Below are positions 57,687 through 64,000 of a stretch of 64,000 bases of DNA, one piece after another. A program made the position numbers and the translations under genes. The notes under the pieces were generated by a model. It was not told the origin of the DNA, did not search any database, and worked only from the letters and a program-made list of their open reading frames with translations. The stretch's first letter is position 1. The number at the start of each line of letters is the position of its first letter. This stretch comes from Comamonas sp. (GTDB lineage: Bacteria > Pseudomonadota > Gammaproteobacteria > Burkholderiales > Burkholderiaceae_C). The stretch covers positions 62,001 through 126,000 of the forward strand of contig JAQVCA010000003.1 of NCBI GenBank assembly GCA_028690035.1. The letters are read 5' to 3'.

Positions 57687-59368
57687 TTTTCAATCCACAC
57701 CCGCCATTGCTGACGGGCGAACCCCCTTGGGCTTGGTGCCTTCTTTGAGGTGCTGGAGACTGGTTTCAATCCACGCCCGCCATTGCTGACGGGCGAACTC
57801 CATGGCTACGCACTGCAAGTCAATGCAGCGGGTGTTTCAATCCACGCCCGCCATTGCTGACGGGCGAACCAGGGTGCAGTTGTGGGGGCGATTGAGGCGC
57901 AGGAGTTTCAATCCACGCCCGCCATTGCTGACGGGCGAACCAATACCCAGAGGACTTTTGTAACAGCAGCGACGATGTTTCAATCCACGCCCGCCATTGC
58001 TGGCGGGCGAATCGCCCAAGGCGGAGGCTCAAGCCGTCAGTACGCCCTGTTTCAATCCACGCCCGCCATTGCTGGCGGGCGAATCCATCGACGATCTCGG
58101 CATCGGCCAGTTGATCTACGTTTCAATCCACGCCCGCCATTGCTGGCGGGCGAATCAAGGTTGGTATGCCAAGACTGACGCGCTTGAGCCGTTTCAATCC
58201 ACGCCCGCCATTGCTGGCGGGCGAATCGGTGACAACGCCACGGGCAAACTGCGGCCAGCTCAGTTTCAATCCACGCCCGCCATTGCTGGCGGGCGAATCG
58301 TGCGCGTGGCCTTTGGCCGGATGGTGCCCGTCGCTGTTTCAATCCACGCCCGCCATTGCTGGCGGGCGAACCCTGTTGGACAGCAAGATGATGCCGCCGT
58401 CGGTGTACGTTTCAATCCACGCCCGCCATTGCTGACGGGCGAACCGTCACGGCCTGGGGCGGCAGTGCGTCGTGGGTGTGTTTCAATCCACGCCCGCCAT
58501 TGCTGACGGGCGAACCCTACGTGCAAGAGGCAATGCATATCGAGCGCGTGGTTTCAATCCACGCCCGCCATTGCTGACGGGCGAACCCGCTGTGTTTTGC
58601 CATCTGCATCTTTCTCCACGCGTTTCAATCCACGCCCGCCATTGCTGACGGGCGAACCCCGGCTGACGGCCAGTACGAGGCCAGCAACGACGTGTTTCAA
58701 TCCACGCCCGCCATTGCTGACGGGCGAACCCCACGTAGTCAGTGACTTCGGCTTCGATCGTGCCGTTTCAATCCACGCCCGCCATTGCTGACGGGCGAAC
58801 CGTCGTGTGCGTACACATAGCCTTGCCCTGTCACGTTTCAATCCACGCCCGCCATTGCTGACGGGCGAACCGTTGTAGAGGTCGCTCATGGCGTGCCAAT
58901 AGTCGGTTTCAATCCACGCCCGCCATTGCTGACGGGCGAACCGGCGGGCGGTGCGCATGTCACTTGCTTGTCAGAGGTTTCAATCCACGCCCGCCATTGC
59001 TGACGGGCGAACCGCCGTCATACAGGTCTAGAGCCACATCCACACGGCGTTTCAATCCACGCCCGCCATTGCTGACGGGCGAACTCTATGCTGCAGCGAC
59101 TATGGCCGATCTCATGGAGTTTCAATCCACGCCCGCCATTGCTGACGGGCGAACCTCTCGCGGCTCGCTCTTCCGTCGTGGTGCATAGTGTTTCAATCCA
59201 CGCCCGCCATTGCTGACGGGCGAACCAGGAAGGCGTGGACGTGTCGCCCGCTGATGGATTGGTTTCAATCCACGCCCGCCATTGCTGACGGGCGAACCCG
59301 CTCGCGGACTTGATGATGCGCAGCAGCAGCTAGTTTCAATCCACGCCCGCCATTGCTGACGGGCGAAC
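57687..59368 (-). CRISPR. Type I-C CRISPR array, 24 repeats and 23 spacers
   Basis: The 36-base repeat begins gtttcaatccacgcccgcca and ends attgct-gacgggcgaac (plus strand). On the minus strand it ends in ATTGAAAC, the I-C-type crRNA handle. Repeat starts run from 57687 to 59333. Spacers are 34-37 bases except the leftmost (40). Transcription is leftward from the leader next to cas2. The leftmost repeat is degenerate at two positions, as expected at the leader-distal end. Repeats 5-9 carry two changes (tggcgggcgaat), and repeat 10 carries only one of them. The repeat has a stem of up to eight pairs. Confidence 0.98.
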
Positions 59369-59583
59369 CCCTGCGCATGTAACACTTTGCCAAGCAATGG
59401 TTTTTTCTGGTGTTTGCGCGAACCTAGCGATGCCGTCCTGTGTTTGCATGAAAAACCACCGCCAGACCATAAAAAACCGAATCAAAACAAGGTGTTGCGA
59501 AGGGCGCGAACCTCCAGGTAAAAAACCATTCACTTGAGGTTCGCAGCGCTCACCATAGCACGGCACAGGCTGCGTGCCGCCAG
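59369..59583 (-). promoter_or_regulatory. CRISPR leader
   Basis: 215 bases between cas2 and the first (newest) repeat, AT-richer than its surroundings and without a gene. It contains four aaaaacc/ggttttt tracts (around 59398-59406, 59450-59457, 59471-59478 and 59520-59527) and two copies of gcgcgaacct (59416-59425, 59504-59513). The array promoter and adaptation signals are expected here; exact sites cannot be placed. Confidence 0.75.
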
Positions 59584-59874
59584 TTACAGCACCAGCGGGC
59601 CCTCAAAATCCGTCGCCCTGAATGTGCCGTGCTCTCTCACCTCGAAGCCACGTGTGCCGGGCATGCGGTAGAGCCGCAGGCAGTCTGCGGCGGGGTCGAT
59701 TTCGGCCAGTAGCCGACGCTCCAGTGCTTCGTACTGGGCTACGTCGAGCTGGCACTCGAACACCGATTTTTGTACCCGCTGCCCGGTGCTTTCGCACACG
59801 CGCGCCACGCGGCGCAAGCGGCGTCGGCCCGCTTGGGTTTCGGTGTTCACGTCATAGCAAACCAATACCAGCAC
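59584..59874 (-). CDS. cas2: CRISPR-associated endonuclease Cas2
   Basis: 96 residues. [20 protein letters not shown] is the Cas2 ferredoxin-like N-terminus with the conserved Asp8, and [20 protein letters not shown] follows. With Cas1 it forms the spacer-integration complex. It begins ten bases after cas1 and is the last cas gene before the leader. Confidence 0.96.
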
Positions 59875-59884
59875 GGTTTACTCC

Positions 59885-60913
59885 CTACTTGGCGACAAAC
59901 GGCACATAGGGCGCGCCATCGTCGCGCATGGCGCGGGCTAACAGGCGAGCTTGCACCAGTGGCACCAAACCCAGCGGCACGGATTGCGCCAGCAGCGGGT
60001 GGTTGATGTCGTCTTTTTTCCGCTCTTGGTAGGCCACCACCACGGCTTTGCGGGCGTCGGGCTGCAAGGCCACCGCACCGCCTTCGCGCAGTACAAAGTC
60101 ATGTGCTTTCAACTGGCCCCGGTTGATCAGCGTCAGTGCCAGCCGGTCGGCCCAGGGACGAAACTCCTCCATCAAGTCCAGCGCCAAGGATGCTCGCCCG
60201 GGACGCAAAGCGTGCAAGAAACCCACTTGCGGATCAAGCCCGGCTGCCTCCAGCGCGCTGCGGCAGTCGTTCATCCACATGGCGTACAAAAACGACAGCA
60301 GGGCGTTGAGCCGGTCGCGCGGCGGGCGGCGCGTGCGCCCGTCCATGGCAAAAGCGGTACGCTGGTCGGCACGCACCAGCAGATTCAGGCCGCTGAAGTA
60401 GCGGCGCGCGGCTTCGCCCTCGATGCCGCGCACACCATCCAGACTGTCCTCGCCCGGCAGGGCGCGCAGGCTGGCGGCAAGATCATCGGCCAGACGGGCC
60501 AGGGCGTTGGCTTCATCTTCCGCCTTGGCTTCGCGGGCGCCACGCTGCAACACTTGCCGGGTGTTTTTGAGCTTGCCCGCCACGCTGGCGCGGGCCATGT
60601 CCAGCGTGAATGCAGGGTCAGCCACGCGCTGAAACTGCGCTTGGCGCAGCAGCACATTGCCGCTGACGGCCCCTTCCAGCCGTGCCTTGAAGCGACCGTT
60701 GTCGTCCAGCAGCACCAGGGCAATGCCCCGGTCGGCCAGCAGGTGCATCAAGGGGGCCGACAGGTTGATATGGCCAAAACACACTACGGCGCTCAGGTGG
60801 TGCAGCGGTACGCGCAGCCGGGTTTCGCGGTTGACCTCCACGCGCAGGGTGTCGTTGTCCAGCCGCAGGTAGGTGTCGGGCGTGGTGACGTAGAGGGTGT
60901 TGAGCAGTTGCAT
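59885..60913 (-). CDS. cas1: CRISPR-associated integrase Cas1 (type I-C)
   Basis: 342 residues. It inserts new spacers at the leader end. The metal-site residues are Glu165 (RGIEGEAARRYFSGLN), His234 (GFLHALRPGRASLALDL) and the acidic pair Asp246/Glu249 before FRPWADRLAL. The N-terminus (MQLLNTLYVTTPDTYLRLDN) fits the I-C subtype. The longer in-frame extension upstream overlaps cas4 and was rejected. It is 26 bases after cas4. Confidence 0.97.
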   Translation of the reverse strand: MQLLNTLYVTTPDTYLRLDNDTLRVEVNRETRLRVPLHHLSAVVCFGHINLSAPLMHLLADRGIALVLLDDNGRFKARLEGAVSGNVLLRQAQFQRVADPAFTLDMARASVAGKLKNTRQVLQRGAREAKAEDEANALARLADDLAASLRALPGEDSLDGVRGIEGEAARRYFSGLNLLVRADQRTAFAMDGRTRRPPRDRLNALLSFLYAMWMNDCRSALEAAGLDPQVGFLHALRPGRASLALDLMEEFRPWADRLALTLINRGQLKAHDFVLREGGAVALQPDARKAVVVAYQERKKDDINHPLLAQSVPLGLVPLVQARLLARAMRDDGAPYVPFVAK

Positions 60914-60939
60914 GGTCTGGCCTGTGGGTGGGCACGCTG

Positions 60940-61596
60940 CTATGCGTCGGGGTCGAACAAGGACTGCCGGGCCGCCATGAGGCTGGCATGTGTGGCTTGC
61001 GGTTGGCAGCGTTCCTGCAATGAGCAGCCTTTGCAGCGCTGCGCCGCTTGCGCACCCGCCAGGGGCGGTGGCAATTGCCCGCTGGCCAGCATCTGCTGAA
61101 TGGCCTGGGCCGTTTGTGCCACGTCGGCGCGCAATTGCGCCGTGATAGGCACAACCCGGCGGCGTTTGGAGCTGGCGTAGTACAGCGCGCCTTCGGGTAC
61201 GGGCTGGCCGGTCATGGCCTCCAGGCACAGGGCTTGCGCGGCCAGCTGCAGGTCGTCGCAGGCGGCAATGTCGGCAGCCTTGTTGCGGCTGCCGTGTTTG
61301 TATTCGACCGGGTAGGGCACGCCAGCGGCCAGAAACTCCACCACGTCGGCCTTGCCAATCAGCCCCAGCGCGTCGTGCCACAGCGGCAGGGCGCGCTCCA
61401 CGCGCACGCCTTTGGCGGTGTCAACGCCGGGCAGGTCGGCCTTGGTATGCACCGCCTGGCCGCGCAGGGTGGCGAGGTTGTCATCAAACACCTGCTCCAG
61501 GTGGATCAGACCGCACTGGCGCGGGCAGTAGCGCCAGTGCTGCAAGGCCGACAGGGGAACGGCTTCGGGTTCTGGCGTGGCGGTTGCAGTGGGCAT
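60940..61596 (-). CDS. cas4: CRISPR-associated exonuclease Cas4
   Basis: 218 residues. It trims and orients prespacers for Cas1-Cas2. Iron-sulfur ligand cysteines are at 24 (RYCPRQCGLIH) and at 188, 191 and 197 (RCKGCSLQERCQP). The RecB-type nuclease residues are Asp84 (IGKADVVEF) and the Glu98-Lys100 pair (YPVEYKHGS). It is a separate gene, not fused to cas1. The ATG lies five bases after the BRO-N gene, so translation of the two is probably coupled. Confidence 0.95.
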   Translation of the reverse strand: MPTATATPEPEAVPLSALQHWRYCPRQCGLIHLEQVFDDNLATLRGQAVHTKADLPGVDTAKGVRVERALPLWHDALGLIGKADVVEFLAAGVPYPVEYKHGSRNKAADIAACDDLQLAAQALCLEAMTGQPVPEGALYYASSKRRRVVPITAQLRADVAQTAQAIQQMLASGQLPPPLAGAQAAQRCKGCSLQERCQPQATHASLMAARQSLFDPDA

Positions 61597-61601
61597 GGGC
61601 G

Positions 61602-62501
61602 CTACGGTTTTTGGGGCGCCTTGCTGGCTTGGGCTGGCGGGATGGCTTTCAGCGCTTTTGCTGCCTTGGGTGCTTTTGGTGCTTTGGGTGCAACTGGTGG
61701 CAGGTAGTTGTCTCCCGTCACCACGGACTGGCCGGTTTGGCTCTCTAGCTGCGTGCGGGCCTGGCGGGCGATGCGGCCACCGGCTTGCGCGGCGGTTTTG
61801 TTTTCTGCCATGCCGGTGGCGTTGTGGCGCTCGGCAATCTGGCGGGTGGAGAGTTCGGCCAAGGCCGTAAAAATCAGCTCGGCTTCGCTCATGTGGTCGC
61901 GCAGGTTGTGGCTGGTGAGGCCCTTGGCCTCTTTGTGCTCGGCCACGCTCAGGCCCGCCCATTCTTGGTGGATGAGGTTGGTGAGGATGGCGAACTCGCG
62001 CCCTTTCTCGATGCCGTGCTCGCTCCAGTAATCGGTGAGCTTGTTGCGCGTTTCCTGGCCGGTCATGCGCTGGGCAATCCACTTGTCGCTGCGGCCTTGC
62101 TGCTGCCAGGTTTGGCGCGCACGCTCCAGCGCCTGGGCCGGATCAGCAATCTCCTGCATGCGCTCGTAGCCCACCTTGGCCAGCCACCGCTTGATGGGTT
62201 CGGCCTTGGGGCTGGGGATGGATTGCACGATGCGCAGCAGGCTCTGGGCGGTGGCGCAGTCGGTTTCGCGCTGCTTTCCATCAGGGGCCGTCAATTTCAA
62301 CCTTACGATTTTTTCGTAAGGTTGCTCAGAACCAGCCTCCTGCGCCAGCTTGCGCTTGAGGTCAGACCAGTACCGGTTGGCGTTGGTGCTACCGGTCAGC
62401 ACCTGCACGATGTCGATGACCGAGAACCACCAGGTCTCAGTGGCTTCGTCGTACACGCGGCGGATGGCCTGGCCGTCGAATTGGGTGGGCAGGATTTTCA
62501 T
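61602..62501 (-). CDS. BRO-N domain protein embedded in the cas operon
   Basis: 299 residues. The N-terminal 110 residues fit the BRO-N/phage-antirepressor family: AIRRVYDEATETWWFSVIDI, VLTGSTNANRYWSDLKRKL, QSLLRIVQSIPSPKAEPIKR. The C-terminal part has GLTSHNLRDHMSEAELIFTA and NATGMAENKTAAQAGGRIAR, typical of the long bacterial BRO/DinD-like form. An Ala/Lys/Pro-rich tail (about 268-299) closes it. BRO-N proteins bind nucleic acid and are usually phage or mobile regulators. It lies 13 bases after cas7 and five before cas4, so it is co-transcribed with them. It is not a standard type I-C component. Role unknown. Confidence 0.88.
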   Translation of the reverse strand: MKILPTQFDGQAIRRVYDEATETWWFSVIDIVQVLTGSTNANRYWSDLKRKLAQEAGSEQPYEKIVRLKLTAPDGKQRETDCATAQSLLRIVQSIPSPKAEPIKRWLAKVGYERMQEIADPAQALERARQTWQQQGRSDKWIAQRMTGQETRNKLTDYWSEHGIEKGREFAILTNLIHQEWAGLSVAEHKEAKGLTSHNLRDHMSEAELIFTALAELSTRQIAERHNATGMAENKTAAQAGGRIARQARTQLESQTGQSVVTGDNYLPPVAPKAPKAPKAAKALKAIPPAQASKAPQKP

Positions 62502-62514
62502 GCGTGGCCCCGGG

Positions 62515-63513
62515 TCAGAAAAGCCGGGTCAAGGTCACGCCCGCTGCGGGTTGCAGCGATTGCCCTACGGCCAGACTTTGGCCATCAAAGGTGACCGTAT
62601 AGGCATCAAAGCTGCGCGCCACGGTACCAGCTTCTTTGGGCTGGACTTGCAGGCACTCAAACAAAGCGTGCGCCGGGGCGTTACCCAGTTCGCTGTCGTG
62701 CTGGAACACGTACAGCCCGCGCGTGGACATTTCGCCGCGTGCAGCCGAGCGGTCGTGCTCAAACATCTGGCCCAGCGCCTGCCACAGCAGCTGCAGGTCG
62801 TCGGCACCAAAGCCGGTTTGCTTGGCCAGGAAGGACGAGACAAAGCCGTGGGCCACGTACACGCCATAGGGCACGGTGTGCTTGCGGCCCATGGTGCGGT
62901 TGTCGCCTTGCTGCTTTTCTGCCTCAGCCTCGGTGGCAACGGCCATGCGGGTGATGGAGTGCTCCAACGCCACGATGGGCTCCACCGACCGCGCAAAGGT
63001 GAGCTGCACCGGGCCGCGCACCTGGCCGCAGTTGATCCCGGTGGACATGACGGCGCCAAAGGTACGCACATCAAAAAAGTTCTGGCACATCCATTGGCGC
63101 GCCAGGGCCACTTCGTCGGCGCTGCCTTTGCGCTTGTCTTTGGCGGGTTTTTTCTTTTTGGCGTCTGTTGCTTCGTTTTCTGTAGCTGCTGGCGCTTTCT
63201 CCTCGGGCGTTACAGCCAGATTTAACGCTGAATAAGCGCGCTCATGTTGCAGGTTGAGGATGGCTTTTTCGCGCACGTAGATTTCAAAGCGCTTTTCGCC
63301 ATCCATAGGCGCGCGCTCGTCTTGTTCTTTCACCAGCCCGACAAAGTTGCGCACTTTGCGCTTGAGCGATACATCGGTCACCAGGCCATGGCCAGATTCA
63401 GCATCCAGGCGCGGCATATTGCCCGCGTCGGGATCGCCGTTGGGGTTGCCGTCTTTGACATCAAAAATCAGCACAAAGTCATAGCGGTGGGCAAGGGGTT
63501 GGGCGGGGCTCAT
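62515..63513 (-). CDS. cas7: Type I-C Cascade backbone protein Cas7 (Csd2)
   Basis: 332 residues. It coats the crRNA spacer in the Cascade complex. Csd2 features are visible: [40 protein letters not shown], the [21 protein letters not shown] core, and SPIVA-like region [19 protein letters not shown] Lys/Ala-rich insert (about residues 105-130) precedes the [13 protein letters not shown] segment; similar inserts occur in this family. The start ATG overlaps the cas8c stop in ATGA. Confidence 0.95.
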
Positions 63514-63902
63514 GCGGGTGTTCCTTCCGTGTTGGTGGTGGTGTGCGCGGTGGCGTCGGTTTTTTTGCTGAAAAAGTCTTGCCGCTGGTGGTAGTAGCCC
63601 AAGGCAAAGCGGCCTTGGTCGGGCAGCGGCAAGTGCTTGGGAAATTCGCTGACCGGGCCGAGCACTTCGCCCAGCAGCTTCTCAAACTGGGCGGTGCGCC
63701 CGGCGGAGAGTTTTTTCAGGTGGGCGTTTTTCAGGCGCAGCAAGGTGGTGAACACCGCCACCGGTGTGCTGGAAGCCGCGCCGTAATAGCGGTCGCGGAT
63801 GGTGGCGTTCAGCCCGGGGCTGGCTTCTTCCTGGATTTTTTCCAGCACCGCAAAGAGCCGCCCCAGGCGGTAGGCCGGGTGCGTGTTGCTGAGGTCGAGC
63901 AT
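63510..63902 (-). CDS. cas11c: Probable internal gene for small subunit Cas11c within cas8c
   Basis: 130 residues in the same frame as the end of cas8c. The internal ATG ([20 protein letters not shown]) is preceded by AAAAGGAG nine bases upstream, a strong ribosome-binding site inside coding sequence. Published work on type I-C shows that the C-terminal part of Cas8c is made separately from such an internal start as the small subunit Cas11c. Here the start and spacing fit that; production of the protein is inferred. Confidence 0.65.
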
Positions 63903-64000
63903 GGGCAAAAACTCCTTTTCAAGTAAGTGCGGTGGCGCAGAAAGGTTGGCTCGGCGTATCTGTCGATTGAGGTAGGCTTTGATGGCAGCCGCCCTGGCAT
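63510..64000 (-). CDS. cas8c: Type I-C large subunit Cas8c (Csd1), C-terminal part (cut by window edge)
   Basis: The frame is open to the right edge; about 163 C-terminal residues are seen, beginning [20 protein letters not shown] and continuing [40 protein letters not shown] and [15 protein letters not shown], which match the end of Csd1. Cas8c recognises the PAM and helps unwind target DNA. Only a fragment is visible, so the start cannot be judged. Genes cas5 and cas3 are expected further right. Confidence 0.9.

Follow-up and report, generated by a model that had tools for sequence, protein, structure and literature searches.

DdrC of Deinococcus radiodurans binds DNA and is damage-induced, and it is reported to bind without sequence specificity (PMC5436757). 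PDC-S13 is listed by PADLOC as a single-gene phage defence candidate only, and a search of the open-access literature found neither PDC-S13 by name nor a function, CRISPR place, or palindrome of it. Bro-N proteins are common in phages, where antirepressors combine the Bro-N domain with KilAC or ANT. In restriction-modification systems, the controller (C) proteins are small, belong to the HTH_3 type, and have upstream sites, while lacO2-type intragenic operators and Rickettsia palindromic elements place a palindromic site within coding DNA.

The Bro-N gene of a Comamonas type I-C operon

The window, i.e., the whole stretch of DNA analysed, was 64,000 nt in length and covered positions 62,001–126,000 of the forward strand of Comamonas sp. 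contig JAQVCA010000003.1. It contained a type I-C operon on the minus strand in the order cas8c, cas7, Bro-N gene, cas4, cas1, and cas2, followed by the array, and the features were as follows:

63510..64000, minus strand, C-terminal part of cas8c, cut by the window end (profile search)
62515..63513, minus strand, cas7 (csd2/Csd2), upstream gene (TIGR02589, E 8.5e-120)
61602..62501, minus strand, Bro-N/PDC-S13 gene, 299 aa (ORF and profile searches)
62298..62324, no strand assigned, coding palindrome with 11-nt arms and 5-nt loop, encoding residues 60–68 (sequence)
62286..62393, minus strand, swappable cassette, codons 37–72, comprising the predicted recognition helix and the palindrome-encoded segment (model plus comparison of type and DNA identity)
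60940..61596, minus strand, cas4, downstream gene, putative start (TIGR00372, 109.6 bits, cut-off 65)
59885..60916, minus strand, cas1 (Cas1c), start taken from the profile match (TIGR03640, 498.5 bits, cut-off 385)
59584..59874, minus strand, cas2 (profile search)
about 57688..59369, strand not applicable, CRISPR array of 24 repeat copies, downstream of the operon

The Bro-N ORF was intact from its ATG start and lay 13 bp from cas7 and 5 bp from cas4 (start taken at 61596), in agreement with an earlier note on this DNA that had described a complete gene inserted in register between these two; the spacing suggests that it may be co-expressed with Cascade. A protein search of its own genome at E 0.001 or better returned a single copy.

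The BRO-N assignment of the earlier note was borne out by PF02498 (E 3.1e-9; 37.8 bits, above the cut-off of 25.6; residues 15–109). The best profile match was PDC-S13 (E 7.9e-118; residues 7–273 against profile positions 9–273 of 286), which placed the protein in the same family, and PHROG 15286 was also matched (E 3.1e-85). Phage antirepressors have the Bro-N domain in common with it, but the Pfam profile search returned only Bro-N above cut-off, with no KilAC, ANT, or HTH_3; the protein was thus not counted among the antirepressors, which carry a C-terminal KilAC/ANT domain, nor among the C proteins, to which it had a likeness of proposed role only (autoregulation delaying a restriction gene), its fold being different and its candidate site intragenic.

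In an AlphaFold model computed from 50 aligned natural sequences (mean pLDDT 84.2, pTM 0.54), the N-terminal domain was a winged helix and the C-terminal domain was helical. DdrC ranked first in both comparisons with solved structures, and both of its domains were matched, so the modelled protein appears to have a DdrC/DinD-like fold; the whole-chain rmsd was high (12–15), so that the match held for the individual domains and not for the chain as a rigid whole. At the sequence level, the links to DdrC and E. coli DinD were weak and pointed in the same direction: (i) DinD gave a blastp match of E 6e-5 with 24% identity over 141 columns, and (ii) the DdrC equivalog NCBIfam NF033622 scored 19.6 bits against a cut-off of 150, so the protein was not taken as a DdrC equivalog; a sequence search against solved structures gave no match. 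DinD shared the Bro-N type, a similar C-terminal half, and a wing quasi-palindrome (see below), but it was remote in sequence and stood outside defence operons.

Recurrence in CRISPR loci and other genomic contexts

The survey covered 250 genomes of the window's family, 32 of which had an I-C cas1 above the curated cut-off. The Bro-N gene stood beside cas4 in six of these 32 (G000, G035, G141, G142, G205, and G226), too few for a core type I-C component; it was also present in G221, whose contig ended in cas4, and the remaining 26 I-C loci had no Bro-N copy within the 9–10 kb fetched. The order I-C cas7, Bro-N gene, and cas4 was found in eight fetched loci (the window, L040–L043, L047, L053, and L059), while in L038, L060, and L058 the gene stayed with cas4-cas1-cas2 and the effector genes were different or not found, and in L044 and L051 it adjoined cas7 remnants (L055 was the L038 locus and L054 the L044 locus, each counted once). 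In two more tree lineages the position differed: the L100 gene lay between cas4 and cas1, and that of L079 followed cas6f, adjacent to a Cas5fv-type gene. The cas-linked Bro-N genes were under purifying selection (median dN/dS 0.135; 45 pairs from ten loci), and their distances followed those of Cas4 (Spearman 0.52, p 0.004) and Cas1 (0.44, p 0.013) in ten cas-linked loci more than those of Cas7 (0.26, p 0.094; nine loci). Conservation in related I-C loci, proposed in the earlier note as a check, was therefore partial, the gene being recurrent and under selection in a minority and not found in the rest.

The cas7-cas4 gap was a cargo junction that held toxin-antitoxin-type genes in other loci (L137–L162). 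In the 26 I-C loci without the Bro-N gene, the aligned end of cas7 was separated from that of cas4 by −3 to 135 bp in 16 and by 503–1771 bp in 10, and the view that standard I-C order has no gene here is an oversimplification. Ten junction proteins were tested in Pfam, nine from seven of the 10 wide-gap loci and one from L100 (L150 and L153 were unassigned). Matches were to NYN, HicA (two loci), PIN, ParE, and DUF5615, and, next to an HTH_3 match, RelE fell slightly short of the cut-off; the L100 protein was a RhuM fragment, and a HicB-like piece of L149 had no Pfam match. Pairs named by reading were also seen between the Bro-N gene and cas4, HicBA-like at L038:8806-9306 and RelE-like/HTH at L058:5247-5877. 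In L038, L060, L150, L151, L155, L156, and L160, cas7 was 24–32% identical and cas4-cas1-cas2 66–89% identical, and the effector cassette seems to have been exchanged at this same junction.

The comparison was also applied to relatives outside cas operons, many of which stood alone. Among the best 25 of 81 Pfam families in their 66 tight same-strand neighbours, the commonest were ResIII (6), Methylase_S (5), DEAD (5), and SWI2_SNF2 (4). A same-strand hsdR lay downstream in ten Bro-N loci, seven of them with hsdM upstream, these hsd names resting on ORFs of a few reference loci; another gene intervened before hsdR in L068 and L070, and the HsdR-like match of L071 lay upstream of the Bro-N gene instead. 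L090 and L127 had the order methylase, Bro-N gene, and ResIII protein.

Coding palindrome and swapped helix-palindrome cassette

The segment joining the recognition helix and the wing was encoded by a DNA palindrome, a feature new here and unseen in the earlier note; such coding palindromes were not described in the open-access literature searched. Perfect arms of at least 11 bp (loop up to 5) occurred in 72 of the 101 family genes, compared with 15 of the 842 remaining genes of these loci, and these 15 included one dinD and one ORF6N gene with the palindrome at a like place. The symmetry went beyond coding need: when codons were recoded synonymously at random, no more than 1% of trials produced an arm equal to the observed one for 88/101 genes (13/101 failed this level), and mirrored codons were reverse complements in 66/67 genes of one core class and 22/22 of the other. 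Arm pairing, computed on 100 genes (one omitted for want of a centre), was 98–100% at positions 3–8 from the centre, 79–86% at 9–10, and 96–98% at 11–12, falling to 54–64% at 13–14 and 3% at 15. G-T and A-C mismatches were equally rare over positions 3–13 of these genes (9 and 8, respectively), which favours DNA over RNA and speaks against an RNA hairpin. The ends of a mobile unit were likewise rejected, the flanks of 26 genes having no shared terminal sequence by eye. In lacO2 and the Rickettsia palindromic elements the site also lies in coding DNA, but there it does not encode the recognition segment of its own reader.

Residues 37–72 fell into discrete types while much of the remaining protein was conserved. 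Ten different-type pairs had DNA identity of 36–62% in codons 37–72 and mostly 80–97% in codons 93–232; the drop in codons 37–72 was missing from same-type pairs. Cassette type changed at least 31 times among 101 sequences on a weakly resolved tree of the protein outside the cassette (shuffles: mean 57, minimum 48), including seven changes within the 18-member clade of the window gene. The recognition helix and the palindrome thus formed one swapped cassette.

The helix motif was encoded roughly 45 nt before the palindrome and outside it, and it agreed with the palindrome core in 91/91 classifiable genes (ten of the 101 had no classifiable core and were excluded):

YWSDL helix with TACGA core, 22/22
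YWFKM helix with TCGACA core, 5/5
YW[NR][KQ] helix with GTGAC core, 37/37
YWKVLK[NH] helix with GTTAC core, 21/21
YWKVLKG helix with GTAAC core, 5/5
YWTTLKS helix with GTCAC core, one gene

Part of this match could stem from old linkage, helix and core being neighbours in the same cassette.

Further core copies were found within 250 bp upstream in five loci (L083, L098, L108, L117, and L122), against about 0.15 expected from the rest of the loci, and 96/101 loci had none in this interval. L117 had four upstream palindromes with different cores, 42–51 bp apart, and L098 had two; the L108 copy may be an old gene-copy fragment because its surrounding codons resemble the gene. An arm search outside genes gave 8 matches, equal to the 8 of the reversed-arm control, and weight is thus given only to position and to the 250-bp upstream test. 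Across 12 whole genomes, GGTNACANNNTGTNACC occurred at 24 places (reversed control 0), of which the 23 inspected were, by reading, (i) 18 in or near Bro-N genes and (ii) five in or beside ORF6N genes (one Pfam-confirmed, one degenerate), where the same palindrome was read in another frame. The window's own core occurred once in its genome, inside the Bro-N gene. A dispersed repeat was rejected, the core pattern being rare and nearly always at these genes. Separately, an 87-aa ORF at L117:9720-9980, upstream of the Bro-N gene, contained the four alternative palindromes in one reading frame and could be either an operator array or a cassette reservoir.

The sequence comparison was also applied to RhuM, ORF6N, DinD, and other Bro-N genes. 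RhuM had arms of at least 10 bp in 23/30 loci, mostly at the same place and with quite different peptides (the ORF picked in L229 and L243 lay on the other strand), and 18/27 RhuM genes were at or below 1% of recodings; across L229–L258 these palindromes were hyper-diverse at one place, with unrelated peptides. RhuM has been proposed to be a toxin domain (PMC3710099), which differs from the regulator reading given here. ORF6N genes had arms of at least 9 in 8/26, six at the wing by eye, the palindrome of L216 lying away from the wing and that of L222 being read on an other-strand ORF. E. coli K-12 dinD had a 30-bp quasi-palindrome at the wing with 13/14 arm positions paired (one mismatch), and the surrounding 12 kb contained no other place of this kind with a 2-nt loop. 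Among 22 other Bro-N loci (the window's own excluded), a wing palindrome with arms of at least 9 was present in 11 and missing in 11, and the latter were not all antirepressors; the antirepressor-like or similar genes without it included L163, L164, L170, L175, and L176. In the surroundings of 30 RhuM, ORF6N, and further Bro-N loci, one second copy only was found, in L170, and it was not a wing palindrome. Three further cases were noted: (i) at L170:1919-2005, two GTGGCCAC-type palindromes stood upstream of the start of a Bro-N gene that had no wing palindrome, with further copies in the locus; (ii) at L191:1501-2305, an ORF6N gene had a palindrome in the wing codons and two copies just past its 3′ end; and (iii) the window's own genome carried a RhuM gene with a wing palindrome (G000:C9:252992-253207; L258) as well as another Bro-N gene, L163, that lacked such a palindrome.

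Candidate regulatory mechanism and rival explanations

Taken together, symmetry in excess of what the codons require, a footprint of limited extent, the lack of an RNA signature, the helix match, and the upstream copies of some loci favour a DNA site that the encoded protein reads, and the palindrome is probably the site bound by this Bro-N-family protein. The Bro-N gene would then be a portable regulator that brings its own address into defence operons: a palindrome of about 26 bp would be read by the winged-helix domain, and one copy of it sits within the gene itself, where the helix-wing link is encoded. Any swap of specificity would import the matching site as well, since both helix and site are part of a single cassette of about 100 bp. 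Protein bound at the intragenic site would act as a roadblock to transcription, repressing its own gene and the downstream operon genes (cas4-cas1-cas2 in the window, the restriction gene in restriction-modification operons) while sparing the upstream genes (Cascade, methylase), and the DdrC/DinD-like C-terminal half would release it when DNA breaks or single strands arise. The downstream partner was hsdR in 10 loci, ResIII in L090 and L127, and cas4-cas1-cas2 in Comamonadaceae-type CRISPR loci, a placement that suggests a polar gate. M-S-R is an ordinary hsd gene order, so that the place before hsdR alone is not proof of gating. The non-specific binding reported for DdrC, the 96/101 loci that have no upstream core copy, and the 13/101 genes above the 1% recoding level also weigh against this account. 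As a whole, the account in which the protein binds its self-encoded site, regulates itself, and gates cas4-cas1-cas2 or a restriction gene is given an even chance.

A broader version is put slightly below even: mobile regulators of the winged-helix type (PDC-S13, DinD-like, RhuM, and some ORF6N) may form a class that writes its own binding site into its DNA-reading codons, so that helix, wing residues, and operator make up a transferable cassette with a readable base code, serving as a promoter-independent gate for downstream nuclease or adaptation genes in CRISPR and restriction operons. If true, this would explain how one gene settles in unrelated defence operons yet controls them and why specificity is swappable with the site arriving with its reader; it would also give PDC-S13 and RhuM genes a first role, allow a DNA recognition code to be read off the sequence, and offer a means of regulating CRISPR adaptation separately from interference. 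The gene could serve many bacterial defence operons as a portable switch.

The main rival holds that the palindrome is kept by mutation, not selection, with template switching at a quasi-palindrome copying arm onto arm while the protein does something else. The arms do change together, an ancestral palindrome could account for the feature in RhuM and some ORF6N genes, and E. coli dinD has one mismatch; however, pairing did not decay smoothly from the centre, a helix outside the palindrome fitted its core, and core copies lay upstream in five loci, which makes this explanation unlikely. An accessory role in adaptation, with DdrC-like binding of DNA ends or single strands helping or limiting prespacer capture by Cas4-Cas1-Cas2, would suit the fold, the retention with cas4-cas1-cas2 when effectors differ or are gone (L038, L060, and L058), the distances that follow Cas4 and Cas1, and the place of the L100 gene between cas4 and cas1. 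It is nevertheless held to be rather improbable as an alternative, for the same family occurs in restriction-modification operons and alone, 26/32 I-C genomes have no gene at this place, and the palindrome is left unexplained; as an additional function, it need not exclude a regulator that binds its own site.

The wide spread, the many contexts, and a junction common to toxin-antitoxin-type genes would also fit a gene that is selfish or hitch-hikes, inserting into operons in the manner of those genes and using the palindrome for its own mobility, but the lack of shared termini by eye in the 26 flanks, the purifying selection, and a core that is not dispersed leave it little credence. Among the roles offered in the earlier note, regulation of the locus fits best, while a recent phage gene or a captured viral inhibitor of the CRISPR system is scarcely credible. 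Bro-N proteins being common in phages, the PHROG 15286 match, and relatives encoded on four viral contigs are in its favour; against these stand the missing KilAC, the DdrC-like fold, viral relatives only 59–66% identical in the best segment, at least 571 relatives in genome contigs versus 4 in viral contigs (the two scans used different peptide patterns), a gene kept intact in the operon across several genera, and family members in restriction-modification operons.

A LexA-like box (AT-rich CTG-N10-CAG) was present within 150 bp upstream in 9/100 Bro-N genes against 1.05 expected, all nine in the window's family or beta-proteobacterial records, and the 13 CRISPR-embedded genes had none in this interval. 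A LexA-like CTGATAATTTGTACAG or one-base variant was seen about 3.5–4.8 kb upstream of the Bro-N gene in L040, L043, L047, and L053. At L087:10585-12963, the Bro-N gene overlapped by 4 bp an unexpected partner, a gyrase/topoisomerase IV A subunit gene, and the gene downstream in L104 was 95% identical to it.
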